Shown: positions 31,689-63,446 of the stretch, piece after piece
How positions within the stretch are numbered: the first letter of the stretch is position 1
How the letters are laid out: the number at the start of each line of letters is the position of its first letter
Assembly (NCBI RefSeq): GCF_947495205.1
Contig: NZ_CANLXV010000001.1
Span: 186,001 to 250,000 of the forward strand
Reading direction: 5' to 3'
Origin: an uncultured Polaribacter sp.
GTDB taxonomy: Bacteria > Bacteroidota > Bacteroidia > Flavobacteriales > Flavobacteriaceae
Length of the DNA: 64,000 nt
The notes under the pieces: generated by a model
The model's database searches: none
Told to the model about the DNA's origin: nothing
What the model saw: only the letters and a program-made list of their open reading frames with translations
Made by a program: the position numbers and the translations under genes

Positions 31689-32840
31689 ATGAAAACATCT
31701 ATCCTAAACTTATTACTACTCGTTTCTATTTTTATCAGTTGTAACAATCAAGATGATTTTTTTAATCCAAATGCAGAAAGAATACCGCCTGTTATTAATG
31801 TGCCCACAAATTTTGCAGACCCAAACTTAAATGAACAGGCTAAAGATTTATATCAAAGATTAATAAACACCACTCAAAAAGGCATTGCCTTTGGGCAACA
31901 ACAACCTTTTGGTACAGGCAATAATTTTCCAGTAACAAATCAACTAGAAAACGATTTTTTTGAAGTAGCAGGAGATTACCCAGCAATAGCAGGTTTTGAT
32001 TTAGAACTAATAGGTTTGCAACCAGATACAGACTCTAATGTTGCTTTTCTTTTAGACGAATTTATAGATCAATTTACAGCAGCCATTAAAAAAGCACACG
32101 AAAACGGCAGTATCATAACTATAAGTTGGCATCACACAAATCCTAGAGGTTTTGGCACACCAAATGATGGCAGTTTTAATAATGTTGTAAAAGGTTTTTT
32201 AGAAGGTGGCGAATTTAGAGAAGTATACATTAGACGCCTTGCAAGAGCTGCAAGATTACTAAATAAATTAGTAGACGCTAATGGAAATTCCATTCCTGTA
32301 TTGTTTAGACCTTGGCATGAAATGAATGGCGATTTCTTTTTCTGGGGCGAAGGATTTAGAACTACGCAAGAATACATTCAACTTTGGCAAGATACTATTC
32401 AAATTTTATCAGAAGATTTTAATGTGCACAATTTATTATACGTTTACGCGCCAAATTTTGTTGCAAGCCGTTCAGAATATTTAAGAAACTATCCTGGAGA
32501 CCAGTTTGTAGATGTTTTAGGTATAGATGTTTACGATTTTAGAAACAGAAGATTTTTAACAACTGCACTCAAAAATTTAGAAATTGTAGAAAACATCAGT
32601 ATCGAAAAAAATAAACTTTTTGCATTAACAGAAACAGGCTTAACAAACGTAGTGCAAAACACATGGTTTACAGAAAGCTTGTATAAAGCCATAAGAGCCA
32701 GCAGCATTTCTTACGTTATGCTTTGGCGAAATGATATGACTACCTTTTTTCATACACCTTTTTTAGGACATCCAGCAGAAAGTAATTTTAAAGAGTTTTT
32801 AGAAAAGGAAGAAATACTTTTAAGTAGCGATATTTTATAA
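31689..32840 (+). CDS. Glycoside hydrolase family 26 lipoprotein
   Basis: About 383 aa from the ATG at 31689 (MKTSILNLLLLVSIFISC), which gives a clean lipobox; the longer frame from 31668 is rejected. GH26 signatures: ITISWHHTNPRGF, the acid/base glutamate in RPWHEMNGDFFFWG and the nucleophile in ALTETGL. GH26 enzymes are mostly beta-mannanases. Anchored on the cell surface or in the periplasm. An AraC regulator gene follows 66 bp downstream, but no SusC/D pair is adjacent, so it is not in a typical PUL. Confidence 0.88.
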   Translation: MKTSILNLLLLVSIFISCNNQDDFFNPNAERIPPVINVPTNFADPNLNEQAKDLYQRLINTTQKGIAFGQQQPFGTGNNFPVTNQLENDFFEVAGDYPAIAGFDLELIGLQPDTDSNVAFLLDEFIDQFTAAIKKAHENGSIITISWHHTNPRGFGTPNDGSFNNVVKGFLEGGEFREVYIRRLARAARLLNKLVDANGNSIPVLFRPWHEMNGDFFFWGEGFRTTQEYIQLWQDTIQILSEDFNVHNLLYVYAPNFVASRSEYLRNYPGDQFVDVLGIDVYDFRNRRFLTTALKNLEIVENISIEKNKLFALTETGLTNVVQNTWFTESLYKAIRASSISYVMLWRNDMTTFFHTPFLGHPAESNFKEFLEKEEILLSSDIL

Positions 32841-32906
32841 AACTAACCCATATTACACTTTTTGGCAAAAATTACTGTAATTTTACTAACAATGAAAACC
32901 AAATAA

Positions 32907-33746
32907 ATGGCAGTTCAAGAAATTATAAAATACACCTATAAAGACCTCTTTACGTTAAGTACTGTAGAATTTGAAAAAGCATGTACAATAGATCATTCTA
33001 TACAAAAAAACGCCTATTCTATTTATTGGATTCAAGAAGGAAAAGGAACCTATAATATAGATTTTGAAAAATATGAATTTAAAGATAACGTACTATTTTT
33101 CTTAACACCAGGCCAAGTTTTTACTGTAGATTCTGAACAAATAAAAACAGCCTACAAATTTACTTTTGTTAAAGATTTTTACTGCATACAAACCCATGAT
33201 AAAGAAGTAGCTTGTAACGGTATTTTATTTAATAATATATACGAAACACCTTTTGTAAAACCTTGTAAAAAAGACACGCAAAAACTACAATTTATTTTAG
33301 AAAGTTTAATTGAAGAATTTCAACAAAACGAAGCCGCACAATACGACATGTTGCAAGCTTACCTAAAACAATTTATGATTTGTGCCGTACGCGTACAAAA
33401 AGAAAATCATATTATAAAAGAAGATACAGAAACCCGTTTATTTAAAGACTTTAGCTTATTGGTAGAGCAAAATTTTAGAACCCTACATGCTGTTACAGAT
33501 TATGCAAACAGGTTAGGCATTTCACCAAAATCAATAACCAAACACTTTCAAAAATTAGGCGCTACAACACCTTCTCAATTTATAAAAAACCGAATTTTAT
33601 TAGAAGCAAAACGCCTGTTAATCTACACAGAAAAAAACGTAAAAGAAATTGCTTTTGAGTTAGGTTTTAATGATCCTGCGTACTTTACACGTTTTTTTAC
33701 AAAAGCCATAGAAAAATCTCCACTTCAATTTAAAAAAGAGTATTAA
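32907..33746 (+). CDS. AraC family regulator with cupin-like sensor
   Basis: 279 aa. N-terminal AraC-binding/cupin-like region (about 20-115; AYSIYWIQEGKGTYNIDFE, NVLFFLTPGQVFTVD), then HTH_18 with NRLGISPKSITKHFQKLGA and KEIAFELGFNDPAYFTRFF. Soluble regulator of a nearby set; candidates are the microprotein and cupredoxin genes downstream. Ligand unknown. Confidence 0.85.
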   Translation: MAVQEIIKYTYKDLFTLSTVEFEKACTIDHSIQKNAYSIYWIQEGKGTYNIDFEKYEFKDNVLFFLTPGQVFTVDSEQIKTAYKFTFVKDFYCIQTHDKEVACNGILFNNIYETPFVKPCKKDTQKLQFILESLIEEFQQNEAAQYDMLQAYLKQFMICAVRVQKENHIIKEDTETRLFKDFSLLVEQNFRTLHAVTDYANRLGISPKSITKHFQKLGATTPSQFIKNRILLEAKRLLIYTEKNVKEIAFELGFNDPAYFTRFFTKAIEKSPLQFKKEY

Positions 33747-33817
33747 AAACCACTATTCTTGTAGTAAAAATATCCTTTTCAAGACCGTAAAAATCTTAAT
33801 ATAAAATTATCTATTTT

Positions 33818-33936
33818 GGGCGTGCCCACACAAAAAAGTGTGGTCAGGCTTTCCATTATATCTTTTTTATTTGTCAATTTTTCGCTATCGCTCAAAAAAG
33901 ACAAATAAAAAAGGATGCCATTTCAATCCTTCACGC
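33818..33936 (+). ncRNA. Structured RNA candidate (multi-branch)
   Basis: A compact set of helices is readable. The outer pairing gcgtg (33820-33824) with cacgc (33932-33936) encloses ccacac/gtgtgg (33826-33831 with 33838-33843) and a long helix of 16 bp with one bulge (33860-33875 with 33900-33916), whose loop carries tcgctatcgct. It lies between the AraC regulator and the microprotein gene. It recalls dispersed flavobacterial RNA elements that I remember seeing in front of genes; the family cannot be named from here. Confidence 0.55.
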
Positions 33937-34058
33937 AAGCATTTTTGCCAACCTTCTTACCAGTCCAAACAGTAGGAACTTTTGTCCAATTTTTAAGCCT
34001 AAAATTGGTTGCATCTTTACAACATCAAAATAACATATTAATTTAAAACATAAAAATC

Positions 34059-34154
34059 ATGAAAACAATAGCAGAAACAAATTGCCCAAACTGTTGGGGT
34101 TACCAAACATATGACGAGCAAAATGAAGACAACCAAGTTTACACCAAAAATTAA
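34059..34154 (+). CDS. 31-aa CPNC microprotein
   Basis: ATG-started frame of 31 codons: MKTIAETNCPNCWGYQTYDE and a polar tail. The CPNCWG motif matches the N-terminus of longer flavobacterial small proteins that have a second CxxC pair near the C-terminus; here the protein ends early, with only one knuckle. It lies 28 bp upstream of the cupredoxin-fold gene on the same strand and probably shares its mRNA. Too short for standard annotation. Confidence 0.55.
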   Translation: MKTIAETNCPNCWGYQTYDEQNEDNQVYTKN

Positions 34155-34182
34155 ATAATTAACAACCTAACAAATAGATAAA

Positions 34183-34569
34183 ATGAAAAAAGTAATCGCA
34201 ATTTTAGTAGTAGTATTAGCATTCGCATTTCAAACAAATGCACAAGACAATATGAAAAAAGAAACTGTAAAAACAGTAGCTTTAGAACAAACTCAAGGTG
34301 AGTTTACCCAAAAAGAAATTAAAATCTCTGAAGGAACTTACATTTTTAAAGTTACCAACAATAATGCCGCTAAAGAAGTAGGTTTGGTTTTAATTGAAAA
34401 TGGTAAAGATGGTAAAAATACAGAAAATCATATAAAAAACGCTTACGTTACACAAATGGTAAAGCAGGGTAAAACAGAGGCTTCTAAACCTGTAACCTTA
34501 AAAAAAGGAACATACCAATACTTTTGCCCTTTTAACAAAACACCACAATACAAATTAATTGTAGAGTAG
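34183..34569 (+). CDS. Secreted cupredoxin-fold protein lacking copper ligands
   Basis: 128 aa with a signal peptide ending at NAQ. The mature part looks like a cupredoxin (FTQKEIKISEGTYIFKVTNN, KPVTLKKGTYQYFCPFNKTP). The usual type 1 copper site has Cys-x-x-His-x4-Met at the end; here the cysteine (YFCPFN) is followed by no histidine or methionine ligands. It may bind metal otherwise or have a structural role. Follows the microprotein gene. Confidence 0.7.
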   Translation: MKKVIAILVVVLAFAFQTNAQDNMKKETVKTVALEQTQGEFTQKEIKISEGTYIFKVTNNNAAKEVGLVLIENGKDGKNTENHIKNAYVTQMVKQGKTEASKPVTLKKGTYQYFCPFNKTPQYKLIVE

Positions 34570-34594
34570 TTTTTTTTTGCACTAAAAATTTAAT

Positions 34595-34618
34595 GTATCG
34601 TTATTTTTAAAACGATAC
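34595..34618 (+). terminator. Hairpin after cupredoxin-like gene
   Basis: 8-bp perfect stem gtatcgtt/aacgatac with an 8-nt loop, 26 bp past the stop codon. Without a clear T-run; probably works with the stronger hairpin that follows. Confidence 0.5.
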
Positions 34619-34627
34619 AAATTAAAA

Positions 34628-34660
34628 AAAAGGCAAACACAAATAATGTGTTTGCCTTTT
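34628..34660. terminator. Bidirectional terminator
   Basis: 13-bp perfect stem aaaaggcaaacac/gtgtttgcctttt, 7-nt loop, followed by a T-run on the plus strand and flanked by an A-run on the left that becomes a T-run on the minus strand. It separates the converging cupredoxin-like gene and the outer-membrane barrel gene. Confidence 0.85.
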
Positions 34661-35683
34661 TTATTTTGTGTTCAAATTAAAATTTACATACACAGCAATA
34701 GCTTGTTTTGGCGTTACATTACCACCAAACAAATTATGCGAAATTGGTGCTGTATAATTGGCACCAAAAATAAATTTTTGAGTAGTTATTTCTGCCCCAA
34801 AAGTTCCGTTAAAAACAGTACCATCTGTGTTTGCAATCGTTTCACCAAACTGTTCTATAGAATTGTAAATATTGCCAGAAATACCTGCAAAAGGCAAAAG
34901 CATAAACTTTTCTTTAGCAATTGCATAAAACAAATTAGCTGCATAACTAAACTGATTTCCAAACCTATATTCGTTTTTATTTTCTCCTTTAAAATAATAG
35001 CTTAAAGTTGTATTTACACCAAATTTATCGCCTCCATAATTGTAAGCAACACCAAAAATACCATCTAAACTTCCTGTTCCTAATTGAAAACCTGGGTTTA
35101 CTCTGTCTGTTAAAATCTGTTCAAATTTACCTGTTGGCAATTTTGCTCCCAAACCAATTTCTATTGAGTGACCAGAAGGTTCTTTAGGCACATTTGAATA
35201 CAAGTTTGCTTTTTTAACATCTGGTTTTTTATAAAACCTAATTTTATACCAACCCATAACAGTAGCATCTCCAAAACCATTAATGTTTTCATTTCTATCT
35301 GTAAAAGCTCTTTTTAAATCTTGATAAGGTAAAATAGCACTTACATAAAATTTATCTGTTATTGGTACTCTTCCCCAAAGTTGGTAGGTATTAAAATTCT
35401 CTGTACTTGTTGGCGAATTTGAAAAGATACCATCTTTAGAAACAAATTTTTGGTAAATATATCTTACTCCTACAAAACTTGCGTTATTTAAGGTTCCTGC
35501 ACCAAAACTACCATTACTTGTTGCACATCCGCACAAATCACAAAAATAATATTTAAAGGAACCTACTTCATGGGCGCTGCATAAATTTTCTTTTTCATGT
35601 GCATAATTTTGCATGGAAATAGAAGAAAAAATCAACAAAAAAAGAAGACTTTGTTTGTTAAAACTCTGCAAAACGTTCATCAT
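34661..35683 (-). CDS. Outer-membrane barrel of MbnP/MbnH operon
   Basis: 340 aa with a secretion signal (about 10-28), then a cysteine cluster YFCDLCGCATSNG, and a beta-barrel-like remainder (alternating strands, ending VYVNFNLNTK). Homologues in Bacteroidota are often called transporter-like. It overlaps the diheme peroxidase gene by 26 bp and closes the operon MbnP, MbnH, barrel. A channel for copper or for electron exchange at the outer membrane is conceivable (inference). Start ATG at 35681-35683 or 35678-35680. Confidence 0.65.
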   Translation of the reverse strand: MMNVLQSFNKQSLLFLLIFSSISMQNYAHEKENLCSAHEVGSFKYYFCDLCGCATSNGSFGAGTLNNASFVGVRYIYQKFVSKDGIFSNSPTSTENFNTYQLWGRVPITDKFYVSAILPYQDLKRAFTDRNENINGFGDATVMGWYKIRFYKKPDVKKANLYSNVPKEPSGHSIEIGLGAKLPTGKFEQILTDRVNPGFQLGTGSLDGIFGVAYNYGGDKFGVNTTLSYYFKGENKNEYRFGNQFSYAANLFYAIAKEKFMLLPFAGISGNIYNSIEQFGETIANTDGTVFNGTFGAEITTQKFIFGANYTAPISHNLFGGNVTPKQAIAVYVNFNLNTK

Positions 35684-36710
35684 TTAAAAAAGTATTATCT
35701 GTTAATGTTTTTAAAAATGCAATTACATTTTCTTTATCTTCTTGGGTTAAATCAATTCCCAAATTACCATTTGCTTTTCGTAAAATAGGATCTACTTCGC
35801 TACCATTTTCTACCATTCCATCTGTATAAAAATTTAAAACATCTTCTAACGTTCCAAATCTACCATCATGCATATAAGGAAAAGACATTTCTGTATTTCT
35901 AAGACTTGGTACTCTAAATTTATAGAAATCTTCTGCAAAACCAGAAACTCGTTTTCTACCTTCTTCCTCAGGAAATCTTGGGTTTACAGGTATGCCATTA
36001 TTTCGATAACTTTTATCTGTAAACAAAGCTCCAGAATGGCAAGAAGCACAGGTATTGTTAAAGATTTGAAAACCTTTTTCTTCTTTAACCGTAAAAGCCT
36101 CGTTCTCTTCTTTTCTAACTACTTTATCGTATTTAGAATCTCCAGAAATCATAGTAACCATAAATTGAGAGAGTGCTTTTAACAATCTTTCTGAGGTAAC
36201 TTCTGCATCACCAAAAGCATTGCTAAACAAAATATCATACTCTTTGTAACTGCTTAATTTAGAAATTACAGAAGGTATGGTTTCATTCATCTCAAAATCA
36301 CTTGTAATGGGAATTATAGGTTGCAGATCCAAATGAATTGCGGCACCATCCCAAGTAAATTCGCTAAAAAAAGCTAAATTTTGTATAGGTTGTGCATTTC
36401 TAAAACCAGTTTTACCGTCTACTCCATGGCTTGTTGTGTGCCCATGATGTGTAAAAGCAGAAGCTTGTTCATGACAAAAACCACAAGATATTATGCCGTC
36501 AGAAGCTAATCTACCTTCGTAAAAAAGTTTTTTCCCTAAAGCAACGCCCTCTTCTGTTAGTGGATTTTTACTCAAATCGTATACTATATCAGGAAAATTA
36601 CTAGGAATCTTTAAATTGATATTGGTAGGGATTTTTACATACTCCTCTTCCTCTTTAGTACAAGAAAACAAAAGCAAAAAGCCCAAACTAATTAAAAATA
36701 AATTTTTCAT
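35658..36710 (-). CDS. Diheme cytochrome c peroxidase, MbnH/MauG type
   Basis: 350 aa, lipoprotein signal with lipobox FSC. Two c-type heme motifs CGFCH and CASCH are visible about 150 residues apart, with GRFGTLEDVLNFYTDGM near the C-terminus. This is the layout of the CcpA/MauG/MbnH peroxidase family. In methanotrophs MbnH oxidises a tryptophan of MbnP to kynurenine, and an MbnP gene lies directly upstream here. Placed at the periplasmic face by its lipid anchor. Confidence 0.85.
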   Translation of the reverse strand: MKNLFLISLGFLLLFSCTKEEEEYVKIPTNINLKIPSNFPDIVYDLSKNPLTEEGVALGKKLFYEGRLASDGIISCGFCHEQASAFTHHGHTTSHGVDGKTGFRNAQPIQNLAFFSEFTWDGAAIHLDLQPIIPITSDFEMNETIPSVISKLSSYKEYDILFSNAFGDAEVTSERLLKALSQFMVTMISGDSKYDKVVRKEENEAFTVKEEKGFQIFNNTCASCHSGALFTDKSYRNNGIPVNPRFPEEEGRKRVSGFAEDFYKFRVPSLRNTEMSFPYMHDGRFGTLEDVLNFYTDGMVENGSEVDPILRKANGNLGIDLTQEDKENVIAFLKTLTDNTFLNDERFAEF

Positions 36711-42964: not shown

Positions 42965-43340
42965 AAATACTATTTATAAAAATCGCTTTATTTAGCGTTT
43001 TCATTGGCAAAGATACGTTGTTTAAAATAGAAGAAATCATATCATTTTTTTGTTTTTCTTTTTCTTTTGGTGTTTTAAAGGCTTTCGCTGCTTGCTTCCT
43101 CCTAAAAAGCAGCAGAACTTAAATAACCAGACTGTCTTAAGCGAAGTTAAAAAGGCTCTTTATTTAGAGCAGATTGTTTGTTTGTATGATTTTCTTATTC
43201 GGATTAAAATTTTGAAAATATTAATAAAAAGTAACTATTACAGTTTTAAAACGATAGTTCAAACGCCCAAAACATGTTAATTTTTTTGATATTGCTTTTA
43301 CAAGTAGTAAATTCATCACCTTAAACTAAACTTTACTATA
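42965..43340. other. Non-coding region between helicase and BNR protein
   Basis: No coding frame with recognisable content. It includes a small hairpin (gctgctt/aagcagc near 43088-43114) and a possible promoter near 43283-43317 (TTG with a TAAATTCA -7-like word), probably for the plus-strand BNR gene. Confidence 0.35.
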
Positions 43341-62775: not shown

Positions 62776-62791
62776 TTTGTTCTTTTTAACA

Positions 62792-62822
62792 GACCTCATA
62801 GGTTTTAAAAACCTGTGAGGTC
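62792..62822. repeat. REP palindrome, left of RAYT
   Basis: 31-bp palindrome beginning gacctcataggtttt and ending with its inverse with one mismatch (aaaacctgtgaggtc). It lies between the dehydratase and the transposase and covers the alternative start of the dehydratase. Confidence 0.85.
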
Positions 62823-62833
62823 TTGTTTTAGAA

Positions 62834-63394
62834 TTATTCTAAAGTTAATAATTCTAAAATAATTACTTCTTTAATTTTATGAGAATCAATAAAATTTTGT
62901 TTGTCTTCAAAAATATTTATAACCTCTTCTCTTAATAAACTTGTAGGTTTACTTGATAAAATTGAATAATACGAAGAATGTTTATACTTCCTAAAATTAT
63001 CAACAAAATTATGATGTGTTGGATTTAAATGAATATATAAAACCAAATTCTTTAAATATTCTTCATTATCTATCTTAACTCTAGAAAACCGGTCTTTAAA
63101 TAAACTCCCACTTCTACCGTACTTTTTATTAATACTTTTAGAATATGCGTTAAACAAATTAGAAAAAGATTGAGAGATTTCTTTTGATAAAACTCTTTCT
63201 TTAGTTTTTATGATAAAATGAAAATGATTTTTTAACAAACAATACACTAAAATATCAGAAGTTTTGGAAAGGTGTTTTTTTACCAACTTTAAAAAATAAT
63301 TATAATTCTGTTCTTCAATAAAGATGTTTTCTTTATTGTTTCCACAATTATAAATGTGATAAAAAGAGTCTTCGACTAAAACTTCGTATTTCAT
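62834..63394 (-). CDS. REP-associated tyrosine transposase (Y1, IS200-like)
   Basis: About 186 aa from the ATG at 63392-63394; the frame from 63418 would begin inside the right REP. HUH motif FHFII (His-hydrophobic-His) near residue 60 and the catalytic tyrosine in NAYSKSINKKYGRSGSLF are both present. N-terminus FYHIYNCGNNKENIF and RVKIDNEEYLKNLVLYIHLN are typical. Such RAYTs cut REP single-strand hairpins; many are domesticated. No disruption of the frame is seen. Confidence 0.85.
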   Translation of the reverse strand: MKYEVLVEDSFYHIYNCGNNKENIFIEEQNYNYFLKLVKKHLSKTSDILVYCLLKNHFHFIIKTKERVLSKEISQSFSNLFNAYSKSINKKYGRSGSLFKDRFSRVKIDNEEYLKNLVLYIHLNPTHHNFVDNFRKYKHSSYYSILSSKPTSLLREEVINIFEDKQNFIDSHKIKEVIILELLTLE

Positions 63395-63410
63395 AAAAAT
63401 TCCTTTTTCA

Positions 63411-63442
63411 GACTTCATAGGTTTTAAAAAACCTGTAAGGTC
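63411..63442. repeat. REP palindrome, right of RAYT
   Basis: 32-bp palindrome beginning gacttcataggtttt and ending aaaacctgtaaggtc, related to the left REP with changes in both arms. It lies just before the stop codon of the type III polyketide synthase. Confidence 0.8.
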
Positions 63443-63446
63443 TAAA

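Follow-up and report, generated by a model that had tools for sequence, protein, structure and literature searches.

Flavo-1 copies in these Polaribacter genomes are largely site-stable structured repeats at gene 3' ends, as observed in three genomes and at one site that recurs in several genera. The copy that led to this observation lies in a 64,000-nt stretch of DNA from an uncultured Polaribacter sp. (the window), where the region 33818-33936 is a Flavo-1 element and so belongs to an established family. Weinberg et al. described Flavo-1 in 2010 (PMC2864571), and the available text of PMC9723704, PMC2864571, and PMC9029176 gives no function for it. By cmscan, window positions 33838..33941 on the minus strand matched Rfam RF01705 (Flavo-1) over the full length of the model, positions 1 to 76, with 58.2 bits against a gathering score of 42, and Flavo-1 was the sole Rfam family above gathering score across the 64 kb. 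A sequence-only reading of the region had likened it to dispersed flavobacterial RNA elements and had put Flavo-1 forward as a family to try, and the match bears out that suggestion. The folded region to which it gave an extent of 119 nt is real, but the element extends slightly beyond both ends (33816-33952). The region was rightly described as being without coding content, as only mechanical ORFs of 41 to 45 codons overlap it, and as flanked by an AraC regulator (32907-33746) and a microprotein gene, the latter being a 31-codon ORF. No tRNA was found within window positions 32000-36000. The features of the locus are as follows.

32907..33746, plus strand: AraC-family regulator (Pfam HTH_18); the element lies antisense beyond its stop codon
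33816..33952, minus strand: whole Flavo-1 element with 5' flank, three-way junction, and 3' CCCAA (extended model, 76.7 bits, E 3.6e-16)
33932..33936, minus strand: 5' arm of the P1 closing stem, GCGTG (from the sequence; columns 17-21 of alignment A3)
33846..33930, minus strand: P2 arm, with an AGG/CCT base, A.G mismatch, TT/AA, GAA/GGA internal loop, AT/AT, GGC/ATA internal loop, ATC/GAT, and bulged C
33863..33912, minus strand: P2 apical helix TTTTTTATTTGTC/GACAAATAAAAAA, 13 bp and a variable loop (from folding)
33826..33843, minus strand: P3 side hairpin CCACAC-TTTTTT-GTGTGG, a variable slot that is not in the Rfam model
33820..33824, minus strand: 3' arm of the P1 closing stem, CACGC (from the sequence and the araC-site alignment)
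34059..34154, plus strand: 31-codon ORF (MKTIAETNCPNCWGYQ...), the first ORF past the element (read from the sequence; no Pfam match)
34183..34569, plus strand: cupredoxin-like protein, 128 aa (PF13473, E 4.5e-08)

The fold of 33818-33936 is real. The 119 nt folded at -33.7 kcal/mol on the plus strand (z -5.25) and at -39.3 kcal/mol on the minus strand (z -4.97), with none of 200 shuffles as low in either case, and the better fold and the Rfam match were both on the minus strand. All of the pairings listed in the sequence-only reading were found in the sequence, including the closing stem GCGTG/CACGC. Its 16-bp helix proved to be 13 contiguous pairs and 3 more beyond one bulged base, and its tcgctatcgct loop is present but partly paired in the minimum-energy fold. 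Alignment of copies extended the plan beyond the Rfam model to a three-way junction of P1, a long P2, and the side hairpin P3, which sits between P2 and P1 and is missing from some copies. Across copies, P2 carries an A.G mismatch, two 3x3 internal loops with conserved purines, a bulged C, and a long A+T-rich terminal helix; in this helix the sister of the window's copy (L177/L071) shows, by eye, a T-A to G-C double change. The elements measure roughly 90 to 190 nt with conserved mismatches and come with two main internal modules (GGCATCC/GATATA and TTGTTTGAGCTC/GCGAGT) and two end types (GCGTTA...TAACGCC and TAGCC...GGAAATAGC). We built a model that includes P1 and P3 (R1; 98 positions, variable loops extra).

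The structure persists intact at the araC site across genera. R1 found Flavo-1 at 30 of 72 araC loci (one of 73, L143, a fragment from another family, was left out), in Polaribacter, Tenacibaculum, Ulvibacter, Lacinutrix, Oceanihabitans, Crocinitomix, and further Flavobacteriaceae. In every case the element lay 5 to 150 nt past araC on the opposite strand, and R1 matched nothing else in those loci. On a tree of 73 AraC proteins, 33 of them scored as element-bearing (L082 and L085 by eye), presence required 7 changes compared with 24.4 under shuffled labels, and 0 of 500 shuffles were as low. The closest relatives of the window's AraC protein were from Polaribacter, at 96% identity. Three araC relatives (L096, L098, and L099) had neither the element nor an evident hairpin instead, as judged by eye, and no DNA similar to the window's copy was found in the phage and plasmid collections searched. 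We note that a GTCC...GTCC motif and a CATCTTT box lie ahead of the ORF past the element (window 33960-34030), and that by pattern match the GTCC pair is downstream of araC in 61 of the 72 loci; perhaps it is an AraC operator.

Covariation in homologous regions, the absence of which had been named as grounds for refutation, was strong across the araC-site sequences. The alignment holds 21 loci and the window in 21 distinct rows and covers the first internal module only, omitting 9 of the 30 elements that have the second. In it, 97.2% of cells were standard pairs, compared with at most 60.3% for slid structures; the rows were fitted to the model, yet strongly conserved anchors bracket the pairs. 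Six pairs were altered on both sides, and one P2 pair was G-C in 10 sequences, U-A in 10, and A-U in 1. The covariation score was 0.177 compared with 0.067 in shuffled alignments, and 0 of 500 shuffles reached it. Of five covariation measures, four were above nearly all shuffles, and the one that was not was the count of further pair types (8, compared with 8.7 shuffled). P1 was invariant, and of three outer P2 pairs, one varied in a single sequence. Module exchange itself can imitate covariation, however, and we caution that covariation in repeats may partly stem from copy-to-copy exchange.

Flavo-1 is dispersed, as had been anticipated, and a search for copies gave 55 matches at an E value of ≤1 in the window's own genome, 41 of them above the cutoff. 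This limit is loose, and 5 of 14 unrelated control genomes gave matches too, none above the cutoff. Among relatives, 23 of 39 had a match and 21 of 39 had one above the cutoff, and within the genus copy number at an E value of ≤0.01 ranged from 0 to at least 91 in 23 other genomes, 19 of which had at least one copy; up to 91 candidates per genome were scored, and a single genome came up to that figure. Fourteen own copies with the second module (TTGTTTGAGCTC...GCGAGT, assigned by eye) had Rfam scores from 45.9 down to 23.6 bits. Two elements lie head to head in L046 (1477-1789), separated by a spacer that is an imperfect inverted repeat, and the pair is also found in L215 from the sister genome.

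Many sites were shared with sister genomes. When the own genome was compared with sister G039, 21 of 49 own copies had both flanks in common with a registered element, 11 were scored as sharing one flank (two of these, L004 and L012, in fact match both), and 17 had no partner among the sister stretches compared. Similarly, of 15 copies in G040, 9 had both flanks in common with a Flavo-1 locus in G000 or G039, 2 had one flank in common, and 4 had neither; at L008, L191, and L182 the partner was not registered as an R1 hit. Not every site was shared. The element at G039 41471 has no counterpart in the aligned own region, and at window positions 43052-43265, where G039 has an element (192063-192143), there are instead about 215 nt that do not match Flavo-1 but include fragments resembling GGTGTTTTAAAGGCTTTC; the window segment is possibly a decayed or replaced copy.

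While sites persisted, sequences did not follow them closely. In 22 orthologous pairs the true partner was the most similar element in 12 and ranked 9th to 18th in four. By eye, the internal module was switched at L029/L148, L053/L208, and L039/L196. Moreover, a 61-nt apical module is common to L032 and L036, which occupy different sites (local score of 57, compared with 13 for the best shuffle); the sister's orthologous site lacks this module and has another. L002 and L003 share a module with the loop inverted. The simplest reading is that copies exchange modules and keep their sites; for each pair, the alternative is fresh insertion of one of two like copies. The literature searched, insofar as its text was available, held no description of such module exchange.

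The P3 slot may take in foreign sequence as well. A palindrome of about 20 bp, CCTGCCTGCCGGCAGG, occurs at 10 loci in sister genome G039 with one mismatch allowed and, at the same tolerance, is absent from the own genome. Eight of the 10 loci lie inside Flavo-1 (seven by Rfam and one, L230, by eye), and by eye seven of these eight palindromes are in the P3 slot, the other (L237) being in the base of the P2 5' arm. The remaining two are in an ORF that by eye resembles an IS transposase. Uptake in the P3 slot in 7 of 8 nested cases would imply folding in the living cell and something acting on the folded form. We also note that the palindrome at these loci (L225-L240 in G039) has the form CCTGCCTGCCGGCAGGCAGG, that variants with more mismatches occur in L148, L200, L206, and L218, and that neither of two 16-mers of the palindrome was found in the literature searched.

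Flavo-1 sits at gene ends with a preferred orientation. The placement of 122 copies was taken from three genomes (49 own, 58 from G039, and 15 of 30 matches from G040, after removal of seven duplicate, partial, or weak rows from 129 and widening of the L052 span to the whole element), with genes being ORFs called by length. In tandem contexts 67 copies were antisense and 22 sense (30 and 8 in the own genome alone), and of the rest, 20 were convergent, 8 were divergent, and 5 had no neighbor on one side. In 42 of the 122 copies the start lies no more than 16 nt from the stop codon found 3' of the element, and the usual order near gene ends was stop, T-rich spacer, element. Neighboring genes include cytidine deaminase, dihydropteroate synthase, uracil-DNA glycosylase, and an enoyl-ACP-reductase-like dehydrogenase, and no common function was found among 10 adjacent proteins, two of which had no Pfam match.

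How Flavo-1 might act at gene ends can be framed around its fold, and we infer, with a probability of roughly 40%, that it acts as a folded gene 3'-end module. Transcription from the neighboring gene or from the opposite side would run through the element, and the read-through RNA would form the three-way junction, only a few nucleotides away from the stop codon. The folded junction might then shield the transcript end or separate it from what comes next; at the araC site, araC would in this way be kept apart from the operon that follows. Under this reading, shape and not sequence would be the target of selection. Hairpin modules would be copied between Flavo-1 copies within a genome, perhaps by a mechanism resembling gene conversion, a pattern evident in the shared modules, such that sequence turns over while site and pairing persist.

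Placement right behind stop codons could instead indicate a bidirectional intrinsic terminator or transcription block, and in two element-free araC loci (L080 and L091) the same place is taken, as judged by eye, by a simple hairpin that ends in a T-rich tail. We consider this quite improbable. A pattern scan found no intrinsic terminator at the element, neither end of the structure leads directly into a U-tract, and on the Rfam strand the sequence after the structure is A-rich, not U-rich. Stable hairpins were no more common adjacent to the element (18 of 120) than further off (21 of 120). Insertion behind existing intrinsic terminators was also considered and rejected; L013, L018, and L054 are strong single cases, yet there was no excess over control windows. 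Canonical terminators lay ahead of the element in 12 of 61 cases (21 of 61 when those inside and behind were counted) and at 12 of 46 control gene ends, and in convergent contexts they preceded the element in 2 of 16 cases compared with 4 of 34 controls. Terminators are thus about equally common at the element and at control gene ends, no substitution is seen, and we discarded terminator replacement by Flavo-1 as well.

Which strand folds was read from wobble pairs and stability. Among 103 matches at an E value of ≤1e-5 from 100 sources, read on the Rfam strand, cells of P2 and the middle and inner helices held 17 G.U and 3 A.C, and the apical extension held 22 and 8. P1 and P3 were excluded, as copies with type A ends do not form the modeled pairs there; over all 24 pairs the counts were 27 G.U and 32 A.C, with one P1 pair giving 24 of the A.C cells. 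A model-free parse by regular expression gave 25 G.U and 11 A.C in the apical helix and 3 and 0 in the middle helix, from 49 copies (52 rows less 3 false or duplicate ones) chosen by perfect P1 complement, so that its P1 counts are biased. With RNA energies the Rfam strand was the more stable one in 80 of 122 copies, and with DNA energies it was so in 87 of 122; in these strand tests copies from sister species share sites and so are not independent. The wobble and stability asymmetry indicates that the fold is probably kept on the Rfam strand, antisense to most neighboring genes. Such an antisense fold is hard to square with a role in the mRNA of the gene itself, and the asymmetry fits RNA and single-stranded DNA equally.

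A fold on the Rfam strand would also suit a free-standing small RNA gene acting in trans, and Rfam labels the family "Gene; sRNA." This is the least probable of the readings weighed here. Dozens of diverged copies speak against it, and no conserved promoter was seen in the 80 nt upstream, where only the element's own flank, GGCAAAC, stood out; the profile covers 63 of 121 copies, class A only, a crude split by regular expression having put at least 11 GCGTTAGC copies into that class. In Flavobacterium psychrophilum, the available text of PMC9723704 reports Flavo-1 hits that were indistinctly sense or antisense to transcribed regions, with many outside them, describes no consistent transcript, and states that no real clues to function came from the hits. 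These published expression data are ambiguous, and the "RNA" status of Flavo-1 is supported by structure, not expression.

Selfish DNA is nearly as likely an explanation as the gene-end module. Flavo-1 would then be a nonautonomous mobile DNA hairpin of the REP or MITE kind that brings no benefit at its sites; an unknown enzyme would recognize the shape as single-stranded DNA, and continuous copying or conversion would keep the copies folded. The range of copy number in the genus (0 to at least 91), near-identical modules at unrelated sites, the sister element at G039 41471, and the 17 own copies without a partner among the sister stretches compared all favor it, and the strand asymmetry fits one single-stranded DNA strand as well as it fits RNA. 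Against it, many sites are old, as shown by the 21 own copies with both flanks common to a sister copy, an intact structure persists at one site across genera, and neither of two candidate enzymes tracked copy number. Within the genus, IS200-like Y1 transposase was found in 5 of the 10 genomes that have 10 or more Flavo-1 copies and in 5 of the 13 that have fewer; three genomes (G001, G008, and G021) had 57 to 62 Flavo-1 matches and no Y1, and another (G002) had 6 Y1 matches and no Flavo-1. Reverse transcriptase was in slight excess, with a match in 6 of the 10 copy-rich genomes and 3 of the 13 copy-poor ones, but copy-rich G004, G009, G013, and G021 had no match, and a tie to retroelements or group II relatives was rejected because the enzyme showed no consistent link with copy number.

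The window does encode a RAYT-like gene (62834-63418, minus strand; Y1_Tnp PF01797, E 3.9e-06), which scored 61.1 bits, under the cutoff of 80, against NCBIfam NF047646, REP-associated tyrosine transposase. It sits between what by eye are apparent fatty-acid/polyketide enzyme genes and is flanked (62791-62823 and 63410-63443) by palindromes of the AGACCTCATAGGTTTT...CCTGTGAGGTCT kind that are unrelated to Flavo-1, an arrangement that recurs in L065. Other RAYT-like genes are close to Flavo-1 copies, at 0.6 kb in G018 and at 1.4 kb in G005. Y1/RAYT was rejected as the mobilizer because both the L065 gene and the window's gene come with palindromes of their own and because gene counts do not track Flavo-1 counts.

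It is less likely than not, though quite possible, that Flavo-1 elements are fixed gene-end "docking" structures, and not an RNA gene, with sites inherited, modules exchanged, and a foreign palindrome taken into the P3 slot. Whatever the role, a shape kept at the same gene end while hairpins are swapped gives a handle on it, and comparison turns Flavo-1 into a testable object. The araC site is one cross-genus location where the element can be deleted, the sister-species pair allows hairpin exchange and palindrome entry to be followed, and P1, P3, and the two exchangeable internal modules are a basis for rebuilding the Flavo-1 model.

The P2 arm and internal loops are of the same kind as in Flavo-1 RF01705, but the Rfam model is without P1 and P3 and scores the second internal module poorly. 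REP and REPIN sequences are short extragenic structured repeats present in dozens or more per genome and often at gene 3' ends. Flavo-1 is likewise short, extragenic, present in dozens per genome, and found at gene 3' ends, but it is a three-way junction rather than a single palindrome or an inverted pair of 20- to 40-bp REPs, and RAYT-type Y1 genes do not track it. Finally, integron attC sites lie behind a gene and are imperfect folded stems in which certain unpaired bases are conserved and the terminal structure varies. Flavo-1 fits the same description, but it is dispersed at syntenic sites and not in cassette arrays.
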